This document shows positions 49,097 through 53,296 of a stretch of 64,000 nucleotides of DNA, piece after piece. Origin of the DNA: Flavobacteriales bacterium (lineage in GTDB: Bacteria > Bacteroidota > Bacteroidia > Flavobacteriales_F > PHOS-HE28); assembly GCA_024103275.1 (NCBI GenBank), contig JAGFIV010000090.1, positions 1-64,000 on the forward strand, in the 5' to 3' direction. The notes below the pieces were generated by a model. That model did not search any database. It was not told where the DNA came from and worked only from the letters and a program-made list of their open reading frames with translations. Each line of letters starts with the position of its first letter. Position 1 is the stretch's first letter. Position numbers and translations under genes: made by a program.

Positions 49097-49103
49097 CGCC
49101 GTC

Positions 49104-49185
49104 TTCCAACGGGGTGCCTCCGCGCGATGCGGAAGCTGAGATCATACCCGATGAACCTGCGCAGGTAATGCTGCGAAGGGACCGC
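49104..49185 (+). promoter_or_regulatory. TPP (THI-element) riboswitch
   Basis: All conserved blocks of the thiamin pyrophosphate aptamer appear in order: GGGGTGCC, CTGAGA, ACCCGATGAACCTG, GGTAATGC and GAAGGGA. It begins directly after the promoter box and ends about 45 bases before the ATG of the TonB receptor. A downstream hairpin, CTCCGTG (49203-49209) with CACGGAG (49220-49226), covers the GGAG next to the start codon and is a candidate expression platform. Confidence 0.95.
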
Positions 49186-49231
49186 ACCGGACCGCCGGGC
49201 ACCTCCGTGAAAGACGCAACACGGAGAGCGG

Positions 49232-51634
49232 ATGAAAGGCAGGATCTTCCTCTTGGGCTTGGCGACGATCACGGGCATGACCCTTTCGGCCCAAGTGAAA
49301 TTGACGGGCACGGTATACGATGCCACAGACGCACCGGTGCCCTTCGCAAGCGTGTTTTTCACCGACCGTGGATGGTCGGTGGCCGCCGACGCACAAGGAC
49401 GCTTTCAGGCCGGGGGGCTGGTCCCGGGCGGATTGCGGCTGCGGATCAGCGCCGTCGGCCTTGAAACATTGGACACGTTGGTGCACATGGAAGCGGGCGG
49501 CAACGCCATGCGCTTCACCTTGCGCCAGGCCACGCGTGAACTGGCGCCGGCGGAGGTGACGGCCCTTCGGGCGGGCGACCGCGCCCCCTTTGCCAAAAGC
49601 GTGGTGACCGCGGAGGAGATCCAGCGCAACAACAACGGCACCGACCTGCCCTTCCTGCTGGACATGCAGCCCAGCCTGGTGGCCACCAGCGATGCAGGCA
49701 CCGGCATCGGCTACACCGCCATGCGCATCCGCGGCAGCGATGCCACACGCACCAACATCACCATCAACGGCGTTCCCTTCAACGATGCCGAAAGCCAAGG
49801 TGCCTTCCTGGTGAACCTGCCCGACCTGGCGGCCAGCGCCGAGGATATCGAGGTGCAGCGCGGCGTAGGTACCAGCACCAACGGTCCGGGCGCCTTCGGG
49901 GCCAGCATCAACCTGCGCACCACCGCGGTGAAGGCAAAGGCATGGGGGACCGTTAGCGCGGGCGGCGGCTCGTACAACACGCAGCGCTACGCCGTCAGTG
50001 CAGGCACGGGCCTGCTCGGCAGCTCCAATGCCTCGCGGTTCAGCCTCGATCTGCGCCTGTCGTCCATCACCAGCGATGGATATATCGACCGGGCCACGGC
50101 CGACCTGAAGAGCTACTTCCTCCAAGGCGCGTGGGTGGGGAAGGGGCGCTCGCTGCGCTTCATCACCTTCCGCGGAAAGGAAGTGACCTACCAGGCCTGG
50201 GACGGTGTGCCGCGCGAGGTGATCGATACCAACCGCACGTACAACGGCTTCACCTACGACAACCAGGTGGACAATTACGACCAGACGCATTACCAAGTGC
50301 TCTTCGACCAGCAGCTGGGGAAGAACGCCGTGCTCAACCTCACCCTCTTCCGCGTGCTGGGTGCCGGCTACTACGAGCAGTACAAGCCCAACGACAAGCT
50401 GTCCACATACGGGATTGCCTCGCCGCTGGTGGTGAACGGCGACACGCTCACGCGCACCGACATCATCCGCCGCCGCTGGCTGGACAACGTCCTCTGGGGC
50501 GCCAACCTCAGTGCCGCCATCAAGCTGGGCGCCCACACGCTCATCCTTGGCGGCAGCTACAGCGACTACCGGGGCGACCACTTCGGCGAGGTCATCTGGG
50601 CGCGCTACGCGGAAAACATCGGCATCCGCCACCGCTACTACGGCAACGACGCACATAAGACGGACGCCAACGCCTACGCCAAGTTGACCTATGCCCTGCG
50701 CGGTAACCTGGACCTGTACGGTGACCTGCAACTGCGCACGGTGGGGTACCGTTTCCTTGGCATCAACCACCAACTGCAGGACATCACCCAGCACGTGGAG
50801 TGGACCTTCTTCAATCCCAAGGCGGGCCTGTTGTGGCGGCTGGCGCCGGGTGTGCAGGCATACGCATCCGCTGCCGTGGCCAACCGGGAGCCATCGCGTG
50901 CGGACCTGCAGGAGAACACTTCGGACCAGCGCGTCCGCGGTGAGCACCTGCTGGATTATGAGCTCGGTTTCGACCGCCGAACCGGCAGGTGGAACATGGG
51001 CCTCAACCTATTCTACATGGACTACACGGACCAGCTGGTGCTCACAGGCGAGCTGGGCGATACCGGTGCCGACCTGCGCACCAACGTGCCTAAGAGCCAC
51101 CGTGCGGGCGTGGAACTGACGGGGGGCGTGCAGCTGGCCAGGCCCCTGGTGTGGAAGGCCAACGCCACGTTCAGCACCAACAAGCTCGACGGTTTCACGG
51201 AATACGTGGACGACTGGGACAACGGCGGGCAAGTGGCCATTGCCCACGGCCGAAGCAACCTCTCGTTTTCGCCTTCCGTGATCGCGGGCAGCGAACTGCG
51301 CTGGCAACTTTGGAATAAGCGGGCCAAAAGCAGCTTTGACCTGGCCTGGATCAGCAAATACGTGGGACGGCAGTACCTCGACAACACCACCAGCTCCGAT
51401 CGCATGCTGGATGCCTACTGGGTGAACGACCTGCGCCTGAACGCCACGATCCTCAACGTGAAAGGCACCAGGTTCATCGACCTCAACCTCACCGTGCGGA
51501 ACCTCTTCAGCGAGCTTTACGAGAGCAACGGCTGGAGCTACGGCTACATCAGTGAGGGGCGGAGGCAGGAGATGGTCAATCTCTTCCCGCAGGCACCGAT
51601 CAACGTGCTGGGCGGGGTGAGTGTATCGTTTTGA
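49232..51634 (+). CDS. TonB-dependent receptor, probably for thiamin
   Basis: 800 aa: signal peptide (KGRIFLLGLATITGMTLSAQ), CarboxypepD_reg-like domain (21-100), plug with the TonB-dependent receptor pattern (MRIRGSDATRTNITINGVPFND), and a beta barrel ending in VSVSF with a terminal Phe. The TPP riboswitch directly in front means it is shut down when thiamin pyrophosphate is plentiful. Such receptors in Bacteroidota are predicted thiamin transporters, so that is the best substrate guess. Confidence 0.93.
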   Translation: MKGRIFLLGLATITGMTLSAQVKLTGTVYDATDAPVPFASVFFTDRGWSVAADAQGRFQAGGLVPGGLRLRISAVGLETLDTLVHMEAGGNAMRFTLRQATRELAPAEVTALRAGDRAPFAKSVVTAEEIQRNNNGTDLPFLLDMQPSLVATSDAGTGIGYTAMRIRGSDATRTNITINGVPFNDAESQGAFLVNLPDLAASAEDIEVQRGVGTSTNGPGAFGASINLRTTAVKAKAWGTVSAGGGSYNTQRYAVSAGTGLLGSSNASRFSLDLRLSSITSDGYIDRATADLKSYFLQGAWVGKGRSLRFITFRGKEVTYQAWDGVPREVIDTNRTYNGFTYDNQVDNYDQTHYQVLFDQQLGKNAVLNLTLFRVLGAGYYEQYKPNDKLSTYGIASPLVVNGDTLTRTDIIRRRWLDNVLWGANLSAAIKLGAHTLILGGSYSDYRGDHFGEVIWARYAENIGIRHRYYGNDAHKTDANAYAKLTYALRGNLDLYGDLQLRTVGYRFLGINHQLQDITQHVEWTFFNPKAGLLWRLAPGVQAYASAAVANREPSRADLQENTSDQRVRGEHLLDYELGFDRRTGRWNMGLNLFYMDYTDQLVLTGELGDTGADLRTNVPKSHRAGVELTGGVQLARPLVWKANATFSTNKLDGFTEYVDDWDNGGQVAIAHGRSNLSFSPSVIAGSELRWQLWNKRAKSSFDLAWISKYVGRQYLDNTTSSDRMLDAYWVNDLRLNATILNVKGTRFIDLNLTVRNLFSELYESNGWSYGYISEGRRQEMVNLFPQAPINVLGGVSVSF

Positions 51635-51679
51635 AACGGATGGGAGTGTGTGGATTCGCGGGGCCGCTGATCTCTGCCA
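51635..51679. other. Short spacer between the receptor gene and the repeat array
   Basis: 45 bases with no gene; the palindrome array begins right after it. Confidence 0.6.
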
Positions 51680-52544
51680 GATCCATTCATGGCCATGAAT
51701 GGATCCATCCTGCTGATGGCCAATGCGGTGCCGCTTTTTCGGGCTGAAAGCCGGGTGATGACCAGCCTTGGCTGACAGTTGACGTATTCATGGCCATGAA
51801 TGGATCCATCCTGCTGATGGCCAATGCGGTGCCGCTTTTTCGGGCAGAAAGCCGGGTGGTGACCAGCCTTGGCTGACAGATGACGTATTCATGGCCATCA
51901 ATGGGTCGCGATTCGTTAAGGCCAGTGCCGTCTCGCTCATTGCGGCCATCAGCCAGGGGAAGACCAGCATGGGGTCGTGGATGACATGAGCGTAGTGGCG
52001 CAGGGGCGCGCGGGTCTTACTGTAGTCATGGCCATGAATTCGTCATGGGTCGGCCCAGGCTGGCCCACACCCGGCTTTCTGCCCGAAAAAGCGGCGCCGC
52101 ATTGGCCATCAGCAAGATGGACCCATTCATGGCCATGAATACGTCATCTGTCAGCCAAGGCTGGTCACCACCCGGCTTTCTGCCCGAAAAAGCGGCACCG
52201 CATTGGCCATCAGCAGGATGGATCCATTCATGGCCATGAATACGACAACCGTCCGCCAAGTCCGGTCCTCCCCCGGCTTACAGCCCGAAAACGCGGCACC
52301 GCATCTGCCCTCAGCCGGACGGATCCCTTCATGGCCCGGCATGGACTTATCCTCCTGATGGCCAATGTCGTGCCTCTTTTTCGGGCAGAAAGCCGGGTGA
52401 TTACCAGTCTGGGCTGACAGATGACGTATTCATGGCCATGAATGGATCCATCCTGCTGATGGCCAATGCGGTGCCGCTTTTTCGGGCAGAAAGCCGGGTG
52501 GGGACCAGCCTTGGCTGACAGATGACGTATTCATGGCCATGAAT
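51680..52544. repeat. 101-bp palindrome-bounded repeat array in both orientations
   Basis: Nine copies of ATTCATGGCCATGAAT or close variants start at 51685, 51786, 51887, 52024, 52125, 52226, 52327, 52428 and 52529. Adjacent copies are exactly 101 bp apart, except for one 137-bp step. The 85-bp segments between them are the same sequence, read forward in units 1-2, reverse in units 3-5 and forward in units 6-7. The first palindrome extends to 26 bp (51680-51705). Units also contain CAGCC/GGCTG and GCTTT/AAAGC hairpins. The array fills the convergent gap between the thiamin receptor and the PcrB-type gene. It encodes no plausible protein. Confidence 0.92.
51903..52023. other. Unique spacer within the 101-bp array
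   Basis: 121 bp not related to the repeat unit, located where the orientation changes from forward to reverse. On the minus strand it can be read as IHDPMLVFPWLMAAMSETAL, weakly like the C-terminus of the neighbouring PcrB-type protein (EEDPELMFAMSEAVHG), so it may be a decayed copy of that 3' end; this is tentative. Confidence 0.45.
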
Positions 52545-52558
52545 ACGTTGGGATCCGC

Positions 52559-53296
52559 TCACCCGTGCACCGCCTCGCTCATGGCGAACATCAGCTCGGG
52601 ATCTTCCTCGAAGGCCGTGCCCACCACCAGCACGTCGGCACCGGCGGCGCAGAGTTCGCGGGCTTGTGCACCGGTGTGGATGCCCCCGCCGATCACAATC
52701 GGCAGTTGGACCTCCTGTCGCACGGCCGCCACCATTTCCGGTGAAACATGCCGATCGGCCCCGCTGCCGGTGTCCATATAGATGGTACGCAGGCCCAGCA
52801 GTTCACCAGCCAGGGCCGTGGCCGCGGCGATGCCGGGCTTGTCGTGCGGAATGGGCACGGTCTGGCTCACGTAGCTCACCGTAGTGGGCTTGCCGCCGTC
52901 CACCAGCATGTAGCCGGTGGGGATGGCCTCCAGGCCCAAGGCGCGGATGGTGGGGGCGGCCGTGACGTGGTGGCCGATCAGCAGTTCGGGGTTGCGCCCA
53001 CTGATCAAGGACAGGAAGAGAACGGCATCGGCGTGGCGGCTCAATTGGGCAGGGCTTCCGGGGAAGAGTACCACCGGGCGATCGCTCCATTGCTTCACCA
53101 GTTGCACGCAGCGGTCGAAAGCAGTCGTGGTCAGCAGGCTTCCACCCACGAAGATCAGGTCCGCCCGGGCCATGCAAGCGTTCTGCACGACCAACGCCAA
53201 GCGCTTTTCGTCGGCCCCGAAGTCTGGATCGATCAGCACCGCCAGCAGCTTGCGCCCTTCGGCCTTGGCCGCTTCCATCTGCCCAAGCACGGTCAT
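52559..53296 (-). CDS. PcrB/GGGPS-family prenylglyceryl phosphate synthase
   Basis: 245 aa TIM-barrel enzyme joining a polyprenyl diphosphate to glycerol-1-phosphate. Signatures: VLIDPDF at the N-terminus, IFVGGSLL, VLFPGSP, SGRNPELLIGHH, YMDTGSGA and IVIGGGIHTGAQA, which bind the phosphate. Bacteroidota have active enzymes of this family, making archaeal-like ether lipid precursors, but the chain length is unknown. A TAAGTTCG near-box ends four bases before the ATG, suggesting a leaderless mRNA. Confidence 0.9.
   Translation of the reverse strand: MTVLGQMEAAKAEGRKLLAVLIDPDFGADEKRLALVVQNACMARADLIFVGGSLLTTTAFDRCVQLVKQWSDRPVVLFPGSPAQLSRHADAVLFLSLISGRNPELLIGHHVTAAPTIRALGLEAIPTGYMLVDGGKPTTVSYVSQTVPIPHDKPGIAAATALAGELLGLRTIYMDTGSGADRHVSPEMVAAVRQEVQLPIVIGGGIHTGAQARELCAAGADVLVVGTAFEEDPELMFAMSEAVHG

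Follow-up and report, generated by a model that had tools for sequence, protein, structure and literature searches.

The window, by which we mean the whole 64,000-nucleotide stretch of DNA analyzed here, contains an array of nine copies of a palindromic core, ATTCATGGCCATGAAT, spanning positions 51685–52544 and placed between the 3′ ends of two genes, one for a TonB-dependent receptor and one for a GGGP synthase (Table 1). The core-to-core steps are, in order, 101, 101, 137, 101, 101, 101, 101, and 101 bp, all but the third being exactly 101 bp, bearing out the exact period with a single longer step described in an earlier, sequence-only reading of this DNA. Of the nine cores, six match perfectly, those at 51887 and 52024 each have a single mismatch, and the one at 52327 is decayed (CTTCATGGCCCGGCAT). 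Eight matches to the palindrome with at most three mismatches were found in the window, relative to 0.3 expected, and none of 100 shuffled sequences reached eight. Just upstream of the receptor gene (49232) there is also a TPP-riboswitch-like match (49100–49198), which at 37.5 bits is below the gathering score of 54.3 (E 5.5e-4) and would fit a thiamin-related receptor.

The units between the cores are arranged in the order F F F′ R R R F F, with identities among them of 70–100%, the highest being that between F2 and the reverse of R2. The orientations given by the sequence-only reading (F F, spacer, R R R, F F) were correct, as was its count of seven units insofar as there are seven exact 101-bp steps, but an eighth unit was overlooked: the 137-bp step, which had been considered to hold a unique spacer, consists of a diverged F-oriented unit (F′) and ~36 extra bp. 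Every unit carries two end flanks, GGATCC and ACGT. The palindrome had been described as 16–26 bp in length; symmetry extending to 26 bp (GGATCC flanks) or 24 bp (ACGT flanks) is found at the outer ends of the array only, and the inner palindromes are mostly hybrids with one flank of each kind. The head-to-head junction (52327) is flanked by GGATCC and, opposite it, by its decayed copy GGACTT. Recombination or template switching inside the core, if it joined the copies, would be expected to yield hybrid inner palindromes, which together with the 52327 junction uphold one part of the earlier proposal that the palindromes are recombination or inversion points, namely that joining and flipping took place there. 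The outer palindromes are able to form 12-bp stems; the further hairpins that had been noted within the units are no more stable than those of shuffled sequence (z −1.9 to +1.2).

Table 1. Coordinates of the palindrome array and its neighboring genes in the window.
Feature	Position	Strand	Remarks
TonB-dependent receptor gene, left neighbor	49232..51634	+	stop 50 bp before array start
Palindrome 1	51680..51705		outer 26-bp form, GATCC-ATTCATGGCCATGAAT-GGATC; core 51685–51700
Spacer unit F1, 85 bp	51701..51785	+	unit alignment
Palindrome 2	51786..51801		hybrid flanks, ACGT / GGATCC
Spacer unit F2, 85 bp	51802..51886	+	unit alignment
Palindrome 3	51887..51902		one mismatch
Diverged F-oriented unit F′ + ~36 bp, 121 bp in total	51903..52023	+	alignment z 5.6 forward, 1.5 reverse
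Palindrome 4	52024..52039		one mismatch
Spacer unit R1	52040..52124	-	unit alignment
Palindrome 5	52125..52140		
Spacer unit R2	52141..52225	-	unit alignment; equals F2 reversed (100%)
Palindrome 6	52226..52241		
Spacer unit R3	52242..52326	-	unit alignment
Palindrome 7	52327..52342		decayed; head-to-head junction, GGATCC / GGACTT
Spacer unit F3	52343..52427	+	unit alignment
Palindrome 8	52428..52443		
Spacer unit F4	52444..52528	+	unit alignment
Palindrome 9	52525..52548		outer 24-bp form, ACGT-core-ACGT; core 52529–52544
PcrB/GGGP synthase gene, right neighbor	52559..53296	-	convergent

The search of the source genome and its relatives that the sequence-only reading had proposed returned 21 copies of the exact palindrome on seven contigs of the source genome (G000; reversed control 0) and variant palindromes in congeners. 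The G000 copies occur in pairs or arrays, always intergenic and mostly 100–109 bp apart, and the spacers at the other loci are mostly unrelated to those of the window array. No exact palindrome was identified in 97 relatives, nor an exact palindrome pair in contigs of other genomes and in viral contigs; a species-specific palindrome, which this absence had suggested, was dropped as a candidate once a MarR-family gene revealed the variants in congeners. We also rejected the copying of spacers from elsewhere in the genome, as their matches were limited to the arrays themselves and to near relatives at other palindrome loci, and a phage, plasmid, or viral origin of the window array, for which no match was found.

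The MarR-family gene is located outside the window, at C79:175–606 of G000, and is bracketed by one palindrome cluster. Its product scores 47.4 bits with PF01047 (cut-off 24.6), and the homologues from G027, G004, and G041 are also above the cut-off. The end of contig C137 and the start of C79 overlap by 25 bp within the repeat, which probably connects the MarR locus to an array that includes four or more palindromes. Four G000 contigs end within such repeats, as might be seen if the arrays were an assembly artefact of collapsed repeats. We consider this scarcely credible, since this architecture recurs across nine independent assemblies whose palindromes differ and whose spacers are unrelated, since orthologous arrays match one another in spacing, and since the window array has distinct units and intact flanks.

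Orthologues of the MarR protein (49–69% identity) were identified in eight of 44 congeners, so that nine of 45 genomes, including G000, carry what we call the type-1 gene, each having its own palindrome variant both adjoining the gene and at scattered sites. The variant beside the gene is ATGTATGGCCATACAT in most of the orthologues and ATGCATGGCCATGCAT in G019. When ATKYATGGCCATRMAT was counted over the genus, 4–35 sites were obtained in exactly the nine gene carriers, and controls gave zero. Among the 36 genomes without the type-1 gene, 34 have no palindrome, G026 has two and G022 one, and these three sites are readable either as remnants or as counter-examples. The co-occurrence of gene and palindrome (9/9 with the gene, 2/36 without) is significant (Fisher p = 6e-8). 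Between species, palindrome types track the MarR protein clades, with few independent events. Outside the genus single palindrome hits occur at about the control rate, and the named records that have such pairs are Flavobacteriales or Bacteroidetes MAGs.

A second type of MarR protein (39–43% identity) is found in G004, G013, G022, and G002 and accompanies a different palindrome, TTGCATGGCCATGCAA. In G004 eight such sites, with an array period of 99 bp, lie beside the type-2 gene, and in the 1.6 Mb of this genome that was scanned the exact type-2 palindrome is nowhere outside the gene's own locus, from which we conclude that dispersal is not general. The G041 homologue has TCATTTGCTTGTACAAGCAAATGA on both sides of the gene. 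In MarR homologues from other families of the class (L243, L245, L246, L249, and L235) ATTTGTATATACAAAT is present upstream, and in three homologues outside the genus it is also present downstream of the gene, and thus bracketing of this kind may be wider than the genus.

In about 12 of 14 MarR genes from congeners a palindrome lies a short distance upstream of the start codon, and in several there is a TAnnTTTG-like −7 box between palindrome and start, an arrangement consistent with the geometry of an autoregulatory operator. G002 and G022 have no palindrome directly before the MarR gene. In the latter (L126) a different inverted repeat, GGATCGCTCGACGAGCGATCC, occupies the usual place of the palindrome and may reflect yet another operator change. 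In eight type-1 proteins the recognition helix has the sequence LDQ[ST]TVTK; LGQSTITK is confined to G000, which is also the sole species with the ATTC variant of the palindrome; this pairing of changes, a single event, is suggestive only.

The sites themselves were informative as to the form in which they act. In 104 type-1a sites, positions 1–8 of the half-site are nearly fixed, positions 10–11 vary freely, and T occupies position 12 in 97% of half-sites, so that the motif extends beyond the 16-bp core as NNNTY. Both end types of the window array fit this pattern, T12 being present in 15 of its 18 half-sites. Pairing between the half-sites is at chance at positions 10, 13, and 14, weakly above it at 11 and 12, and more frequent than expected at position 9. 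That T12 is conserved despite positions 10–11 being free points to a protein footprint rather than a hairpin. The spacers likewise fold no more than shuffled sequence (mean z +0.1 over 142 strands). Conservation in bases, without pairing or spacer folding, is characteristic of a double-stranded protein site. These data bear directly on whether the array could be a structured RNA or terminator array whose hairpins work in the transcript, as the 12-bp stems of the outer palindromes and the location between convergent 3′ ends might suggest. We give this idea very little credence: the array has no Rfam match, its spacers lack excess folding, flank pairing is at chance at the three positions named above while T12 is conserved as a base, and 13 palindrome clusters lie between divergent genes.

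The spacing of the sites is also conserved. In the orthologous arrays of G033, G025, G008, and G026 the distances between palindrome centers are kept, mostly within 0–2 bp (122/122/121, 126/125/128, 171/172, 181/181, 208/210, 218/217/218, 116/116, and 114/113), even though several of the orthologous spacers have diverged to the level of random similarity. Length variation is smaller in the spacers than in the flanks between gene and palindrome (p = 0.003, in a test with few, non-independent orthologous pairs, one of which differs by 14 bp), leading us to infer that spacer length may be under constraint. The same arrays speak against a site-specific inversion system, in which an invertase crossing over at the palindromes would flip the 85-bp segment. 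Such a system would explain why units of either orientation end at a symmetric site, and we regard it as very unlikely. Sister species keep the spacing and, where alignable, the unit order of their arrays instead of shuffling them; no linked recombinase gene of the kind that the sequence-only reading had proposed looking for, serine or tyrosine, was seen in the neighborhoods of the copies examined; the 85-bp segment contains no gene; and the units differ by up to 30%, which implies that the flips are old. The other part of the earlier proposal, that the palindromes are primarily recombination sites, gives way to their membership of a repeat family that is genus-wide, linked to a MarR-family gene, and conserved as a protein-binding motif.

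All of the clusters are intergenic, with 22 between co-directional, 15 between convergent, and 13 between divergent genes, as placed by codon-usage gene calls with a few loci counted twice. The lack of promoter bias implies that most clusters are not ordinary target-gene operators, and ordinary control of target genes is unlikely for most copies. A conserved regulon was likewise rejected, as the neighbor genes shared between clades were few and, by a rough estimate, not clearly above chance.

Gene carriers are scattered on the GGGP synthase DNA tree, requiring at least seven changes. G002, the sister of G000, has no type-1 gene and two decayed ATTC-type sites, a pattern that fits gene loss followed by site decay. 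Five species share synteny at the MarR locus, which has four other contexts in the rest of the nine, suggesting that gene and sites either move or undergo loss and regain. At the G019 MarR locus (C38) the two flanks are 77 kb apart and inverted in G004 (C1, 672.8 kb and 750.9 kb), where an empty-site comparison showed no remnants; this G019 palindrome locus lies at a chromosomal inversion breakpoint relative to G004. With regard to the window array, the TonB receptor and GGGP synthase genes are 12 bp apart in G039 and separated by 577–1175 bp of different content in G020, G005, and G041. This intergenic region (window 51635–52558; L085, L095, L098, and L104) is an insertion hot spot in the genus.

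Another possibility is that the repeats are REPIN-like miniature mobile elements, in which a transposase (RAYT or other) moves the palindrome pair and its spacer and the MarR gene is cargo or a hitch-hiker. The paired, conserved 16-bp ends, intergenic placement and patchy distribution across species are compatible with this, as are the five gene contexts of the MarR locus among nine species and three B-type copies at different loci that share up to 350 bp; REPINs, too, are doublets in which spacer length matters (PMC3116915). We nevertheless judge a mobile element to be unlikely. No transposase was identified in the palindrome or MarR loci examined, most spacers are unrelated and without folding, and the motif is conserved in its bases rather than in pairing, unlike REP hairpins. 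Furthermore, the four Y1/RAYT-like genes of G000 (C63, C77, C104:73.5 kb, and C107:3.0 kb; L045–L048) adjoin their own, different palindromic repeats, those at C63 and C77 sharing one REP type, and none has the array palindrome at up to three mismatches in the stretches read. Three of these four genes are within type I restriction-modification operons. The sequence GCCACGCTGGGGCGTGGC also occurs in frame inside hsdR and a Y1 gene, where it encodes TLGRG repeats.

Comparison with known systems supports the statement of the sequence-only reading that the array is not a CRISPR, attC, or known REP element. It resembles CRISPR in having palindromic repeats and mostly unique spacers of regular length; its spacers, however, are 55–240 bp over the family, its repeats resemble double-stranded protein sites, the copies examined have ordinary neighboring genes with no cas genes nearby, and the window array has no phage or plasmid match. 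The linked protein belongs to the same Pfam family as the autoregulators MarR, OhrR, SlyA, and MosR, with which it shares a palindromic putative operator overlapping its own promoter. Classical members of this family bind at their own locus, where they have one or two sites, and at a few target genes, whereas here the arrays, with as many as nine sites, are dispersed and lie near no shared target gene. A transcription-factor fold in a protein with dispersed sites is known from SlmA. As with the sites of SlmA (SBS, PMC4117426), Noc (NBS), and MatP (matS), the predicted sites of one DNA-binding protein are scattered, here between genes and in species represented by draft assemblies; unlike those, they are grouped at fixed distances in pairs and arrays, have a patchy distribution confined to the genus, and flank the gene of the protein itself. 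The closest likeness in organization is to the REP/REPIN/BIME-RAYT systems of P. fluorescens and E. coli, in which short palindromes likewise occur between genes as doublets and arrays, a dedicated gene has copies of its own repeat at its flanks, the repeat sequence tracks that gene, and, in REPINs, the spacer is conserved more in length than in sequence (PMC3116915, PMC3733652). REPs are defined by a GTAG or CGTC tag and an imperfect hairpin (PMC3733652). The present repeats have no such tag and are perfect palindromes with NNNTY flanks; two repeats and their spacer do not form the long hairpin of a REPIN; the spacers are mostly unique and unstructured; there are 4–35 sites rather than hundreds; and the linked gene encodes a MarR-family regulator, not an HUH transposase.

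Taken as a whole, we consider it likely that the palindromes are operators, predicted to be 26 bp in length, of a co-inherited MarR-family winged-helix dimer, and that the arrays have grown at the palindromes. The dimer would bind both at its own promoter, which contains the predicted site, and at the clusters of that site in other places, and neighboring bound dimers would act together across the spacer, by a loop or a bridge. Alternatively, the arrays may be high-avidity sinks that set the level of free regulator, titration of a regulator by DNA sponges being a known effect (PMC7686491). The window array itself would descend from a single operator-spacer-operator unit that was tandemly duplicated and inverted, through crossovers or template switches inside the shared 16-bp core. 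A more far-reaching version, which we put forward tentatively and regard as doubtful, is that a protein of the MarR family has taken on an architectural role, bridging DNA through spreading operator pairs of its own, with the spacer as a sequence-free ruler for the distance between two bound dimers, and that gene and sites persist or vanish together as a selfish or chromosome-organizing module. If this were true, the DNA-bridging MarR module would be of a kind without earlier description.

We found no described MarR-linked interspersed repeat in the open-access literature. Dispersed palindromic repeats of bacteria are usually credited to a transposase, as in REP-RAYT, or have no function assigned. 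Here, co-occurrence, bracketing, and parallel sequence change tie a repeat family to a gene of transcription-factor type, and this tie makes a simple binding test decisive. Spacers that retain their length while their sequence changes would provide a naturally occurring example of a DNA ruler spanning bound proteins, and MarR genes bracketed by identical palindromes offer a route by which similar systems may be sought.
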